Shown: piece by piece, positions 6,154-57,713 of the stretch
How the letters are laid out: every line of letters begins with the position of its first letter
How positions within the stretch are numbered: position 1 is the stretch's first letter
Assembly (NCBI GenBank): GCA_950295325.1
Contig: OX485805.1
Coordinates: forward strand, 57,560,758-57,624,757
Direction: 5' to 3'
Source of the DNA: Polytrichum commune
Taxonomy: Eukaryota > Streptophyta > Polytrichopsida > Polytrichales > Polytrichaceae
Length of the DNA stretch: 64,000 bases
Program-made: the position numbers and the translations under genes
The notes under the pieces: model-generated
Told to the model about the DNA's origin: nothing
Seen by the model: the letters and a program-made list of their open reading frames with translations, nothing else
Database searches by the model: none

Positions 6154-6892
6154 CATGACATCCTCTCTAAGCTCTCTTGGATCTACTTAGTTATTGCAAC
6201 ACTAACAATGTGGATGACAACGAATAATGCGGGCCAATGTAGATTGGTTGTTTAGGGCAATTGTATCAAATAATTATTAAACTCTTATTTCCTCTATCAA
6301 GTAAGCTTAGATGTGAAGTTGGCTAGGGTACTTCAAGTTGGCTCCAGGAAAACGGTGAAGAGTTTGATTTTTCACAAGGCTTGGATTGATATAGCACACA
6401 TTGAGCAATGGGTGCTATCCAATAAGGGATAATGCTAGTTAAAGTACTTGGCACTTTCATAATCAAGACATTTCAGTAGCTATTATTTTTTATGATACGA
6501 TTTATTCTTAAACAATGACCCGTTGATGAGGCTCGGTATAGGTTTAGGAGGTGGACATGACATCATGAGTCATGGGTTTCACACAACATGAACAAGTGAC
6601 CAGGATGACTTCACATCCCGACACTAAACTTGAAAACTCGAATCTCATTCTATATAGCTCAAACTAGCCCAAGCATAATCATAAAATAGTCATTTTGCAG
6701 TCATGTTGAGACCCCTTTTCTAGTAGTGGTTGTAGTGTGGCAGTTTTACATTAGTTAATTCACAATTCTCCGCTCCACTAATGATTTTCTCATTACGACA
6801 GTATAAACAGTCAGAGCTCGTGTGGACCAAGAAATGATACTGCAATTACTGCAAACATAAACAGGTCAAGGATTTCTAAGTTAGACAATTAC
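6154..6892. other. Intergenic, nothing recognised
   Basis: No coding frame with family similarity. The right part borders the kinase pseudogene and probably includes its former intron, because the splice donor of that exon lies at 6,892/6,893. Confidence 0.4.
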
Positions 6893-7830
6893 CTGAACAT
6901 GTTTGATCAACTGAGTTCGACTATCTGAGCAGTTCTTGAACATCATCTTGATGTAGTCGGTGCCTGTGCTCGAATGAATACTGAATTTTTCCAAAGTTCC
7001 TTGGTCGGTTGCAGATGGTATTTCCATCAAAAGATCGTATCTGACCTCTTCAAGCCTGTTGCAAATCTGTAAAAAGCTAGGCCTTGAACGAGGACGTCCA
7101 TGCCAAGAGTCTTTCACAAGTGCAACCACCTTCTCAGGATAAGCTCCTTGAGGGAGCGGTGGCCTCGTACCTGTCACGAATTCATCGTACAAACAAGTTT
7201 GGAGAATTCCATGAAACGCCTGAGTCCTCCAAAGGAAGAATCTCTGCACAAGTGATGCCAAAGCTATACACATCGACTTTGCTCCAAAGACCCTTCCCCT
7301 ATCTCCTTCTGCAAGGTGTGCATTTCTGAATACCTCTGGAGCTCTGTATCTTGTGGTGCCAGTATTAAGTACCCCGATATTGTGTTTGACTTGGAAACTT
7401 CCACTTTGGTCCTTGACATACCATAATCAATCAACTTCACATACAGTAAGTGTCGACAAGATGTGGAATATTACCGACCTTGTTGATGACCATGTTTGAT
7501 GGTTTGAGGTCTAGATGTGCAATCCCAAAGACATGCAGATAGCACATCCCCTGTGCTATTTCGCACAATGGTATCAAGTGCCACAATCGGTGAAAACAAC
7601 GGTCCTCTACCCTTTGCTCCCAATTTGATAAACTCAGAGGCTCATGTCCATAAGCTCCATGGCTATGAAATAGTGCCCCTTCCGTGGGTCATTTCCACAG
7701 CTTAGAAATTTTACAATATTTGGGTGATTGAGGCGAATCAAAATTTAGGTTTCTTTTACAAAAGTAGCCTCATTCACTCCAGCAATAAAATCCTTCCTTA
7801 CACAAGGGGCACCAAGCCATGTAGATTTAC
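6893..7830 (-). pseudogene. Broken protein kinase domain (exon remnant)
   Basis: Read on the minus strand this is one protein-kinase domain spread over several frames. From N to C: the beta-3/alpha-C part (CVRKDFIAGVNEATFVKE), then after an in-frame TAA the helix-C/beta-4 stretch LIRLNHPNIVKFLSCG, the catalytic loop as AHLDLKPSN (Leu in place of the usual Arg of HRD), LIDYGMS in place of DFG, an activation segment ending TTRYRAPEVF, VDVYSFGITCAEIL, and the C-lobe VKDSWHGRPRSRPSF. At least three frameshifts and stops separate these pieces, so no kinase can be made. The left end has an intact-looking donor (CAG|GTAATT). The motif set resembles moss-type receptor-like or PNL kinases, such as the one at 56-57.7 kb. 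The glycine-rich loop is missing because copia sequence takes over at about 7,830. Confidence 0.85.
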
Positions 7831-52360: not shown

Positions 52361-53603
52361 CTATCTAAAGGAAAATAAAATCCTTGCTTTGACCAACTTT
52401 AACTTTGACATCAAAACTCCCAATTTGAACTTGAAATAACAAACTGCATGATACACAACATACAACAGGAATGGCACCATGCCCAATAAGATCCATTGGT
52501 CAAAATTGTATGCCAAGTTGAAAAGTCACAAATTGTGCAACATATCTTACAAACAAATCATTGAACAAATAAAGTCAGTTTATATCAAGCCATGGACAAT
52601 TCCTTCAAACACCAAAAACCTTCAAATCCATCCCGTACATACCTCAAAGATATCCTACAGTACAATGATAACGCCTCCAAACTCCTTAAGTCCATAGCTC
52701 TATACGAAACTCATCCAACACCTCACTATCTCAATTTCTTCAAACAAGTCAAATCCCCCAACACTTCTGTTACTTTCCTCAAAGAGTTGCGTTCATTGAA
52801 TGATGATTCCTTTAAAGCCTTAGAGTGCATATTCCAGAAAGGAACTCTTCCAAGGCCTCGCAATCACCTATGTACAATTTCTTCAAACAAATCAACCCCC
52901 AATCCTTCCTGTATTTTCTTCAAACATATGCATTCACGGATTGATAGTTTGTCCAAAGCCTTCACAATGCATATTCTTGTAGGGAACTCTGTTGGAGCCT
53001 CGCATTCCCAAATGATCAATTTCTTCAAACCAATCAACCCCCCCAACCCTTCCAATATTTTCCACAAAGATTTGCATCCATCCAAATCTAATTCCTCCAA
53101 AGTCTCGAGAGTGTATATTCCGGAAGGGAACTCCTCCAAGGCCTCGCAATCCCGTATGCCTAATTCTTTCAAATAATTCAACCCCTCCAACCCTTCCGGT
53201 AATTCTCTCAAAGATTTGCACCCTTTGAAAACTTATACCTCCAAAGCCTTAAAAGTGCATACTCCAGAAGGCAACTCCTCCAAGACCTCACCATCCCTCA
53301 TGCCCAATTGCTTCAAACAACTTACCCCCCCCCCCAACCCTTCCCGTATTTCCCTCAAAGATTTGCATCCTTTGAATGATAATTCCTCCAAAGCCTTGAG
53401 AGTGCATATTCCGGAAGGGAACTCCTCCAAGCCCTTGCAATCCCACATCATCAATTTCTTCAAACAAGTCAACCCCCCCAACCCTTCCGGTATTTTCCTC
53501 AACGATTTGCATCCATTGAAATGTAATTCCTCCAAAGCCTTGAGAGTGCATATTCCGGAAGGGAACTCCTCCAAGGACTCGCAATCCCACATATATAATT
53601 TCT
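52361..53603 (-). pseudogene. Frame-broken 3' continuation of the PNL gene: LRRs and tail
   Basis: The 144-bp LRR array of the gene at 53,604-57,713 continues without a break in homology but out of frame. From 53,603 to 53,236 one frame reads YMWDCESLEEFPSGICTLK and so on. An in-frame TAA stands at 53,233-53,235 where other units have a Leu codon, and the same frame then continues (LRELPEGLEGLNYLKELGI) to a 2-bp loss near 52,900. More decayed units follow. At 52,501-52,361 the sequence QWILLGMVPFLLYVVYHAVC and KFKLGVLMSKLKL ends in SFR-stop, exactly parallel to the 44.46-kb relic. The tail is therefore the ancestral C-terminus. Ribosomes would not reach it in the present frame. Confidence 0.85.
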
Positions 53604-54160
53604 TCAACAAGTCCACCCCCCCAACCCTTCCGGTATTTTCCGTAAAGACTTGCATCCTTTGAATGATAATTCCTCCAAAGCCTTGAGAGTGCATATTCCG
53701 GAAGGGAACTCCTCCAAGGCCTCGCAATCCCACATGTACAATGTCTTCAAACAAGTCAACCCCCCCAACCCTTCCGGTATTTTCCGTAAAGATTTGCATC
53801 CTTTGAATGATAATTCCTCCAAAGCCTTGAGAGCGCATATTCCGGAAGGGAACTCCTCCAAGGCCTCGCAATCCCACATCATTAATTTCTTCAAACAAGT
53901 CAACCCCCCCAACCCTTCCGGTATTTTCCGTAAGGATTTGCATCCTTGGAATGATAATTCCTCCAAAGCCTTGAGAGTGCATATTCCGGAAGGGAACTCC
54001 TCCAAGGCCTCGCAATCCCACATCATCAATTTCTTCAAACAAGTCAACCCCCCCAACCCTTCCGGTATTTTCCTCAATGATTTGCATCCATTGAAATCTA
54101 ATTCCTCCAAAGCCTTGAGAGTGCATATTCCGGAAGGGAACTCCTCCAAGCTCGTACATC
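52829..54160 (-). repeat. 144-bp tandem array encoding paired LRRs
   Basis: The anchor ATTCCGGAAGGGAACTCC (plus strand; degenerate in the outer units) recurs at 52,831, 52,973, 53,117, 53,261, 53,408, 53,552, 53,695, 53,839, 53,983 and 54,127. Spacings are 142, 144, 144, 147, 144, 143, 144, 144 and 144. Each unit encodes 48 residues, two 24-residue leucine-rich repeats. Every unit carries a plus-strand C tract (usually C7) encoding the Gly-Gly of EGLGGL. The inner units are almost identical, which points to recent amplification by unequal crossing-over or slippage. Confidence 0.95.
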
Positions 54161-57100
54161 TTGAGATGCCCAATTTGAGTAGAGATGTCAATTGGATTAA
54201 ATCTTTGGGTAGTGCTTTCAGTTGTTCGCAGTCATTAATGTTGAGTTCTTCCAATTCTAACTTTCCAAGGCCAACTGGAAATTGCCCTTGTGGGAACGTG
54301 CACTTGCTGAAAGATACGTCTTTCAGGAATTTAGGTTGGAAATTTTGGAATATAGCAGGTGTACCAATTTTGATTTCAAATAGTTCAAGTACACCCAATT
54401 GTTGAAGATGGTCTTCACCAATGTTCATGAATTCGTTGATGAAATATGTATGTTGCTGTAAAATGTCGTCATATAGAGTTGAGAAATGGATCCTCAACCA
54501 TTTCAATGTCACAGTTTTGGTAATGATAGCTAAAAGCATGTCGATATGTTCACAATTCTTAATACTCAAAAATCGTAGGTTTTTCATAGTGTTCACACCT
54601 ACATTTGTTTGAATTGCCGAATTATTCCTTTCAAACATAGTAAATGAAAGGCCTTCCACAAGTTCTATGCCCTGCAAGTACAACACCACATGCAATTAAT
54701 TCTGTAGTATAATTATCACCATATTCTAACAAAGTAGCAAAGAGTCTACAATTTCATTTGCATTATGTATCATACCTTGTGATTCCAATATTCGAGGAAT
54801 GTTGTCAAAGATAAATTCCACACTCGAGTTTGCTGAAACTCTTTTTCAACAATCATGCGTCCCATATCCCGCAATTGATCATGTATATCCAAAATGTCTC
54901 TTTTGTCAAATTTCACCAATGATTTGTCTTGTAGATTTTCCAATGTGTGATGGGTACTCTTGATGTCATCATCAAACATTCTAAGTAGTGTTGCTTTTGT
55001 ATAAAACCAATCACTAGTCCACGAGTCCTTGGAAAAGAAACAAGTTATGTCTAGAAACATACTTTGTTCTTTCTCACCGAGTTCATTAAAGCTAATCCTC
55101 AATGTTTCCCATATTTTTCCATCTATGCTTCCATCATGTCTTGCCCTCAACAACCTTTGTAAAGTTCGCTCCCATATTCTCAACCTCCTTTCTCCATACA
55201 AATAACTACCCATCACCTCCAAACTCAAAGGAAGCCCATCACAAGCCTTTATAATCTTCTCAACTACATGTTCCAAATATGGCAAACATGGTTGGTTGGT
55301 CGCAAATGCATGGAGAGAAAATAATTCTTTAGATTGCTCTTTATCAAGGGTCTCCATATCTACTTTACCAACTATAGGTATGTGTTGTTTCAAAGACTCC
55401 CAACTCCGGGACGTAGCAATTAGTTTGCTACCATGAACATCAAGACATGTGCAATCACCCAATAGTTCTTCCAGTTGCCTTGCGTTGCCCACATTGTCCA
55501 AAACAATAAGGATTTTTTTGGTCTCTTGCAATTGTTTCAAAAATGTGTGCCCTACTTTCAATGTTTTGGTTTGAGGTGGCTCTTTCACATCATGTAGTTT
55601 GTATTTCACGTGAATGGTACAACTTTCACATGTAAAGTCACCCACGAAGCATGTTGCACCAAATTTGTGGGAAACATGGTCGGTTAGAGCATTTGCCAAA
55701 GTTGATTTGCCAATTCCTCCCATGCCAACAATCCCCAACCTACCAAGGTCGTGAAGTTGCTTCTCCAATTCCAATATCTTTCCTTCGAGTCCGATCAATT
55801 TGGATATTCGCTTTGTTTCCTTAGTGACCTACATAAAATGCCAAATGAAAACTTTCATTGCCATCTAACAAACCTCACTAGAAAAATACCACTAAATTCC
55901 AAATTTTACCAATAAAGTCACAATGCACAACCTTTAGACCCCTACTAAAAGTTGACAATGAAGGTAGACCTCATTCAATGCTTACCTCATGAGCTATTTT
56001 ATTTGATGTTGTGATGTTTGAATTCTCTTGAGCACTTGATGATGAAATGGAAATTGCCTTTAAGAAATTTGATATGTAACGTGGCAACCATTGAGCAAAG
56101 GTGATAAACATTTGCCACAATAGAAGATGTGGCCATATGTTGAGTCCATGGAGTTTTTGTTTGACCATTGTCCAACATCGCTTTGGATATTCCATAGAAC
56201 TACTAGGAGTTGTGGATTCGTGCAAAATTTTAGCCACTCTCACATCACTAGCAACCTTGAGCATTGCATCACTTTTGACTTTTCTCAACCTCTCAAAGAT
56301 ATCAAGGAATGTAGGCCTATTCAAAGGCTCCAAAGACCGACATTCATGTATCAATGATTTCAAATCTTTAGAGCAAGTTTTAGGTAACTCCAGTCTCTCA
56401 TTTACCAAAGACCTCGCACAGTCATGATACCTCTCTCCACTATAATGTCTCATGTTTGAAACAATCTCGTAGCACATCGTGCCAAAACTAAACACATCCA
56501 TTTTGAATGCATCCACCTCTAATCTTCGTTTTGTATGAGCTTCAGGTGCCATATATCCGCGAGTACCAAAACAACTTCCATTTGTAGGTACTTGTGGGGA
56601 GTTTTTCACTTCGATCTTTGAAATCCCAAAATCAAGGATCTTCACATGCACATGTTCCAATGTTGAGCCACCCGTTGAAGTCAATATCACATTATCGGGC
56701 TTCAAATCACGATGCGCCACTTTCATATCATGAAGATAACACATTCCACTTGCAATTTGTATCAAAATGTCAACTCCCATGGCTTCTGTGAGCATACCTC
56801 CTTCCAAAAACCTTGATAAGCTCAAAATTCCTTGTTCCATGACGATTTCAAATCTTTTACTTTCTCTTGCACGTGCGTCACATTCCGTTGATAAGCCACA
56901 ACCAAAAAACTTGATGATGTTGGGATGATCCAATCCACCCAAAATACTAGCCTCCTTGCGAACAATTGTTTCATGCTTAAGATTAAGGTCCTCAACTTTG
57001 AAAATCTTTGTAGCAGTTTCAAATCCAAACCATTGGGTTGAGTATACACTCCCATACCCCCCATTACCCAAAAGCGTAGGTGCCTTCCCATAGTCAGGGG

Positions 57101-57713
57101 ATTCAAAGTTATCTGGAAAGATGATGCTATCTAATTCACTACCCGTGGCCTTCTGCAACCCCCTTATTCGTTCCATCAAATATCGCAAAAGCATGCAATG
57201 ATCGTGGCAATTGTCAATTGTGCACAAATCAACTTCCTTGGAAAGTCGTTCAAATATTGCATTTTGGTCTTGCTCAACTTCATCAATGGTTGTCGGGTAG
57301 AATGTTGTAGACTTTTCCATATCTCGGATTTCAACTTCACAACTAGGAAAAGATTGGCAAAATATTTCGCACATTGTGTGGAAACAATACTCAAAGTCCA
57401 AAAGAAGTTCTCTGAAGGATTCTTTGTTATTCAATTGCATGACCACCACTCGACACCAATCACCGTCCTTGCAACATTCTTCAACCACATGCCTTGCTTT
57501 CTTCATAATACCAAGCATCTCTTGCTCTACTTGGTGGAACACATCCGCGCCATAGGAACCATCGATCATCCTTTGAATTGTTTTCAGACCATTTTGAATA
57601 TTCACCAACAAATTCTTGCATTGCCTACTATTCAAGACCTCTGGATTCTCCTCTATTTTAGGGAAGTTTGTAACTTCCTCTAGTAAGCCTTGTATGTTTG
57701 TCATAATTTGCAT
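53604..57713 (-). CDS. Kinase-NB-ARC-LRR (PNL) immune receptor, 3 exons
   Basis: Exons (minus strand): 57,713-55,986, 55,828-54,776 and 54,671-53,604; GT-AG introns of 157 and 104 bp, all phase 0; 1,282 residues. Residues 1-200 are helical and Cys-rich without a clear family. The kinase covers ~210-480: GNGGYGSVY (216-224), Lys236, HRDLKPDN (334-341), DFG (361-363) and APE (389-391) are all present, so it should be active. Residues ~525-555 are strikingly hydrophobic. NB-ARC: GMGGIGKST (611-619), ILIVLDNV, GSKLIATSRS, GLPLSLEVMG, and IHDQLRDMGR in the MHD position. The LRR part ends in four near-identical 48-residue units. Family knowledge: NB-ARC-LRR proteins are intracellular pathogen sensors switched by ADP/ATP exchange, and PK-NBS-LRR forms are known from mosses. 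The TGA at 53,604 results from a 1-bp loss inside an LRR unit, so the protein is probably shorter than its ancestor. ATGs at 57,713 and 57,704 are both possible starts. Confidence 0.9.

Follow-up and report, generated by a model that had tools for sequence, protein, structure and literature searches.

The window analysed here, a stretch of 64,000 nucleotides from the moss Polytrichum commune (assembly GCA_950295325.1, contig OX485805.1, positions 57,560,758 to 57,624,757), carries on its minus strand, at 57704-53604, a gene for a kinase-containing nucleotide-binding leucine-rich repeat receptor (NLR). Three exons encode 1279 amino acids, arranged as a helical N-terminus followed by a protein kinase, an NB-ARC domain and leucine-rich repeats (LRR). 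Exon 1 (55986-57704, 573 codons), defined through its splice donor (GAG/GTAAGC), Pfam, a predicted model and the fold comparison program VIA, contains a very probable HeLo-type bundle, a brace, the kinase and a hydrophobic linker helix. Exon 2 (54776-55828, 351 codons) encodes the NB-ARC domain, with the P-loop GMGGIGKST at 55700-55726, and a winged-helix domain with the MHD-like motif IHD, while exon 3 (53604-54671) covers the LRR region to the stop; both were delimited by Pfam and reading frame. The introns (intron 1, 55829-55985; intron 2, 54672-54775) are in phase 0 and bordered by GT-AG. Pfam matches comprise Pkinase (1e-40), NB-ARC (1.8e-24), WHD_ROQ1 (6.8e-10) and several LRR families. 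The layout proposed in a first-pass annotation, made from the letters alone, is thereby borne out, including the NB-ARC call, apart from the start codon: it was shifted from 57713, another in-frame ATG three codons upstream, to 57704, where the methionine is in register with those of the paralogs.

PNL genes (kinase, nucleotide-binding site (NBS), LRR) were named in 2012 (Xue et al. 2012, PMC3352924), and in the available text of that study their mark is a phase-0 intron separating kinase from NBS. By its sequence the window gene has all three domains and this dividing intron, in agreement with its earlier designation as a moss-type PNL receptor. The kinase domain (56268-57092; Pfam Pkinase) contains the motifs GNGGYG, ATK, KE, HRDLKPDN, DFG and APE. 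All eight motif sites checked are intact, as had been claimed, and the kinase is predicted to be active on this basis. The hydrophobic patch previously placed at residues 525-555 corresponds to a predicted helix between kinase and NB-ARC (residues ~524-554; 56043-56135).

The N-terminus, for which a resemblance to HeLo, RPW8 and MLKL bundles had been suggested, is very probably an MLKL-type four-helix bundle (residues ~1-132; 57309-57704) with a brace (brace-like helices at residues ~140-185, 57150-57287, joining it to the kinase). An AlphaFold (AF2) model of this region is a helical domain with a predicted local distance difference test (pLDDT) score of 84.6 and a predicted template-modelling (pTM) score of 0.80. 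The comparison with known structures that the first-pass annotation had proposed was carried out with VIA, which aligned 274 of the 276 PDB chains ranked highest by Foldseek. Its first seven rows are all MLKL, namely AtMLKL2 at the top, with 168 residues at 2.9 Å and a Z-score of 14.0, four rows of the human MLKL N-terminal domain (Z 12.2, 12.1, 12.1 and 11.2), AtMLKL3 (Z 11.1) and mouse MLKL (Z 9.7); row 8 is a designed protein (Z 7.8). No RPW8 chain is named among the 50 best rows, a listing that cannot show absence.

Independent sequence comparisons lead to the same family. The signature LNSRQC (residues 24-29; 57618-57635), equivalent to INQRQC in AtMLKL2, recurs as (L/F)NxxQC in 61 of 61 frames, made up of the window frame and those of 60 loci retrieved for their similarity to it. 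An N-terminal alignment of 40 rows, including the window, with less than 88% identity between rows, has nine invariant residues (N, Q, C, L, C, W, Q, F, D). The region described earlier as helical and Cys-rich is indeed helical in the model, and two cysteines are among these invariant positions. Searched against 177,635 PDB sequences, the 40-row profile matched AtMLKL2 (6lba) at E 7.3e-05, the next match standing at E 0.28, and six of the invariant residues (N, Q, C, L, C and W) lined up with their AtMLKL2 counterparts. A strong amphipathic first helix was also considered as a family mark and rejected because only 12 of 38 rows exceeded the 95th percentile of shuffled sequences.

The likeness to MLKL extends through the whole of exon 1. 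Its 573-residue model (pLDDT 79.7, pTM 0.79) was aligned by VIA with the bundle, brace and kinase of AtMLKL3 over 430 residues at 3.2 Å (Z 27.7; model residues 1-486 on chain residues 2-519), and the other 49 of the best 50 rows, from which AtMLKL2 is absent, cover the kinase part only (248-271 residues, Z up to 27.7). With Foldseek, mouse MLKL came second (E 4.5e-13), amid ordinary kinases. An exon-1 profile, whose match to AtMLKL2 starts at profile position 143, scored 204 bits against AtMLKL2, 170 against AtMLKL3 and 155 against CTR1. For the kinase alone the corresponding values were 164, 155 and 151 bits, with MLK1 at 150, so that the lead of the two AtMLKL pseudokinases is small; the high ranks of 9p9u and 7t6f in these lists reflect the summed scores of two kinase domains in a single chain. 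Exon 1 thus combines the bundle, the arrangement of brace then kinase, and a kinase nearer to MLKL than to other tyrosine kinase-like proteins, and differs from the MLKL family in not being a free protein without a receptor part. It is an MLKL-like unit ahead of an NLR, which refines the earlier suggestion in that the kinase, too, is part of the MLKL arrangement.

The kinase relationships were examined in the source genome (408 Mb searched, of which the seven largest contigs make up ~406 Mb). A search with the AtMLKL2 kinase gave 154 listed matches, with the best 148 of 801 candidates scored (best E 1.1e-41). In six of eight such loci that were fetched, a QC motif was seen by eye upstream of the kinase; of the other two, the frame of L083 begins inside the domain and L085 has no visible QC motif. 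A further kinase, L070, was reached through the Pfam MLKL_N model, which it matches above the curated cut-off (31.3 vs 27 bits). In a 52-row kinase tree, a single clade with support 100/99 unites AtMLKL2/3, all 22 of 22 kinase-NLR rows, 15 other moss rows of the same kind, including L070, and L095, a control from the CTR1 query that has KLYKCQCEYL upstream. CTR1, seven moss kinases from the CTR1 query, L069 and L072 lie outside. An approximately unbiased (AU) test that omits L095 and the long-branched L094 rejected a group made up of AtMLKL, CTR1 and six moss kinases resembling CTR1 (p-AU 0.008). A single origin of all kinase-NLRs was neither shown nor rejected (p-AU 0.147). It should be noted that sampling was biased, with few outgroups and with moss rows partly picked by likeness to AtMLKL2. 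The short first domain of L084 was left out of the trees, as were L092 and L096 for being too short. Rows labelled HeLoKin in the tree are those in which an NB-ARC was not seen, with less than 1 kb downstream covered for L070, L086 and L055, and an NB-ARC match belonging to L077 lies at C5:2021430.

Receptors of this kind are abundant in the genome, and the N-terminal region is accordingly anything but a chance pattern. A protein search with the N-terminal region, in which the best 150 of 386 candidates were scored and 150 matches listed, returned at least 114 matches with at least 43% identity over the matched stretch, and 36 further listed matches with 29-38%. The former represent at least 113 loci, with C6:9327804 and C6:9328021 being neighbouring pieces of one locus. 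In at least 104 of the 113, the NB-ARC exon of the window gene is matched on the same strand at a distance of 954-2260 bases downstream, a lower bound given that the best 115 of 461 NB-ARC candidates were scored; for nine loci none is among the matches listed, while the closest group is complete (27/27). Inspection by eye of the DNA past the kinase in eight more distant loci found an NB-ARC frame in seven, six of which also have an LRR frame; the NB-ARC frames of the two scanned with Pfam, L061 and L065, were confirmed. Neither frame was seen past the kinase of L068, a locus of a tandem kind described below. Finally, L059 (G000:C6:6666900-6671000) and L060 (C2:16398080-16403800) contain an LNxxQC region followed by kinase, NB-ARC and LRR (Pfam) in single frames of 1280 and 1827 residues, the bundle-kinase-NB-ARC-LRR frames having no introns. 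Because of the paired loci and these two single frames, the kinase/NB-ARC join is, as far as genomic DNA can tell, real in the family, and much of the doubt about splicing is therefore answered.

Within the family, kinases predicted to be active and degenerate ones exist side by side. All six tallied kinase motifs are kept in 23 of 61 copies, the window's included, 23 copies lack the glycine loop only, and 15 deviate at other motifs, 13 of them with HLD replacing HRD. The hydrophobic helix after the kinase is similarly variable, reaching a 19-residue hydropathy of at least 0.8 in 20 of 38 rows and falling below this in 16, with two unmeasured and some rows ending within the linker.

A number of observations weigh against the interpretation of the gene as a receptor with an MLKL-type executor. 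Mostly helical models without a clear match typically reach a best Z of 14 in VIA, and for this reason the Z of 14.0 obtained with AtMLKL2 is on its own weak proof; for this predicted model, what counts is that seven MLKL rows precede all others as a block and that an independent sequence match points the same way. Foldseek alone gave no match to the N-terminal model at E ≤ 0.001, the best MLKL row having E 1.5 and a probability of 0.80. No MLKL or RPW8 Pfam model matches the N-terminus of the window protein, and the curated MLKL_N score is not reached. Among the 40 N-terminal members, weak MLKL_N matches in eight (best E 0.0092) and weak RPW8 matches in six (best E 0.0052) are equalled in frequency by unrelated families (SPOB_ab in nine, DUF7792 in eight). 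A tblastn search of the source genome with the AtMLKL2 bundle gave eight matches, none significant (best E 0.125). Seven of the eight lie in N-terminal regions of the window kind, five in the same frame upstream of an AtMLKL2-like kinase match and two in N-terminal loci, a distribution that is suggestive only. Further, one or more kinase motifs are missing from 38 of the 61 copies, for which reason catalysis cannot be needed by every copy, and some paralogs have no linker helix. The LRR frame of exon 3 halts at 53604, while LRR coding resumes in another frame to 52864 (52864-53603) within a 144-base tandem repeat array spanning 52731-54150. The halt may be an assembly error or a real truncation; L078, a paralog on contig 6 that is nearly identical (98% over the N-terminal region), has an LRR array broken by an in-frame stop.

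We consider it likely that the product of the window gene is an NLR with a complete MLKL-like unit (bundle, brace and a kinase with its catalytic motifs) as executor at its N-terminus, and that it works as follows. Once the LRR had recognised a pathogen cue, an exchange of nucleotide at the NB-ARC would make the receptor oligomerise and so bring the MLKL-like units together. The bundles would then be freed by the brace and by the kinase, which would act in cis or on its neighbours, and on insertion into a membrane they would give rise to ion flux and cell death, so that the window protein itself would kill the cell. MLKL and HeLo/RPW8 bundles are described as driving membrane cell death, with phosphorylation of MLKL by RIPK3 releasing the bundle (in the consulted parts of PMC12881547 and PMC9950082), and on this analogy the moss bundle, too, is probably an executor, a step we hold with somewhat less assurance. 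Relatives without the glycine loop may act in the manner of MLKL, as switches that respond to the NLR part or to a relative that is active. A more far-reaching version is possible but doubtful. According to it, the receptor is a one-chain necrosome in which an MLKL-type executor and an active RIPK3-like kinase are united with the sensor and the switch, and NLR assembly lets the kinases phosphorylate the neighbouring brace or bundle and so free the bundles. Such receptors would then rank among the main NLRs of a moss, and the MLKLs of seed plants would be related to the unit from which the receptors were built.

The most serious alternative, which we regard as unlikely, accepts the MLKL-type fold and denies it the role of executor. 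The bundle would serve for docking or autoinhibition, and the receptor would act through phosphorylation of other proteins by its kinase, as is generally supposed for kinase-NLRs. The 23 copies with all six motifs, the window among them, fit this view, as does the report that the wheat Tsn1 kinase domain alone causes HRD-dependent cell death; a Physcomitrium patens kinase gave a modest, variable response in the same account (available text of PMC11218826). It is harder to reconcile with a family in which the glycine loop alone is lost in 23 of 61 copies and other motifs in 15, while N, Q and C of the bundle are invariant in 40 rows. The same decay of catalytic motifs would suit a decoy model. 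Here the target of pathogens would be a free MLKL-like kinase of the moss, the MLKL-like unit of the receptor would be a copy of it that serves as bait, and killing would rely on helpers or on some other route. The clade does have members in which no NB-ARC frame was visible over the downstream stretch covered (L080, 2.6 kb; L082, 1.5 kb). However, the MLKL-like unit occupies the N-terminus, the usual place of an executor, in at least 104 of 113 loci, and no further N-terminal domain is evident in the window gene, which makes bait a rather improbable explanation. That the HeLo-kinase and NB-ARC-LRR parts are adjacent genes wrongly joined is more improbable by far, considering the regular same-strand pairing at 954-2260 bases in at least 104 of 113 loci, the phase-0 GT-AG splice sites and the single-frame relatives L059 and L060.

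Several other loci are worth recording. L055 (G000:C1:11030800-11034750) has a 1137-residue frame with two bundle-kinase units in tandem and two Pkinase stretches, 0.5 kb downstream being covered, and L044 and L068 resemble it. At 6881-7426 of the window, on the minus strand, lies a frame that by eye is like the C-terminal half of an L055-type kinase and seems to be a decayed copy. A hydrophobic stretch directly ahead of the bundle, as if N-terminally anchored, is found in L042, L043, L045-L051, L053, L056 and L057 (e.g. IWGFISIWFIKF). L079 and L083 (contig 6, 36 and 24 Mb) form a second kinase-NLR family and are the best two AtMLKL2 kinase matches among those listed; L079 has a weak RPW8 match upstream of the kinase (E 0.0015, below cut-off). 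MLKL_N matches were also found at the front of the U-box/ARM proteins L074 and L075, in L074 overlapping a PUB10_N domain, and ahead of a pseudokinase (HRN, GFF) in L069 and L072, which sit on a very long branch outside the AtMLKL clade. DUF1221, named as the plant MLKL bundle in the available text of PMC10951266, matches G000:C1:75400340-75400606 over the Pfam cut-off and C5:49.25-49.40 Mb below it. One of these matches is in frame with an AtMLKL2-like kinase, and the DUF1221 loci are candidate free moss MLKLs.

Moss kinase-NLRs are already known. No description of an MLKL-type bundle in moss kinase-NLRs was found among the top-ranked results of an open-literature search, with subscription papers and preprints outside its scope. 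In the accessible text of Chia et al. 2024 (PMC11218826), N-terminal domains are the regions upstream of NB-ARC, the kinase type falls in one structure cluster represented by Tsn1, and MLKL is a separate NLR-associated class. For the kinase domain, a 2023 review describes the activity as "conceptually straightforward" and calls for evidence. If the N-terminus is an MLKL unit, moss kinase-NLRs have an executor of a known kind that is directly testable. MLKL-type units would further be placed in a moss, compared with a plant MLKL family described as conserved across seed plants (in the part of PMC9950082 consulted), and an NLR and a necroptosis-type executor would be united in one molecule.

The PNL or Pkn-NLR class of mosses shares with the window gene the order kinase-NBS-LRR, the phase-0 intron between kinase and NBS, and abundance in mosses, but the available descriptions give its N-terminus as a protein kinase and mention no bundle ahead of it (PMC3352924, PMC11218826). 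AtMLKL2/3 (6lba, 6ka4) resemble exon 1 in the order and arrangement of bundle, brace and kinase, in the xNxRQC...C...W residues, and in giving the best single-domain kinase scores for the window family among the PDB chains listed; unlike the window gene, they are pseudokinases (as stated in the accessible part of PMC10951266) and lack NB-ARC and LRR. Wheat Pm13 is an MLKL whose kinase is predicted to be active, and its role is in immunity. It has an MLKL_NTD, a brace and a kinase with key residues, and resistance requires all three; no NB-ARC-LRR appears in the available description (PMC10951266). Human and mouse MLKL with RIPK3 share the executor bundle fold (VIA Z 12.2-9.7) and a kinase-like domain as switch, whereas active kinase and executor are separate proteins there and an NLR part is absent. 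As the window protein very probably does, RPW8-type NLRs (RNLs), nonflowering Cbl-N-type coiled-coil NLRs (PMC11218826) and fungal HeLo/MLKL-like NLRs (PMC9815663) begin with a four-helix bundle, although in the text available for these no kinase is described between bundle and nucleotide-binding domain. If the proposed mechanism is true, one moss receptor would hold the parts that are split in animals among sensor, RIPK3 and MLKL, and in seed plants between NLRs and free MLKLs.

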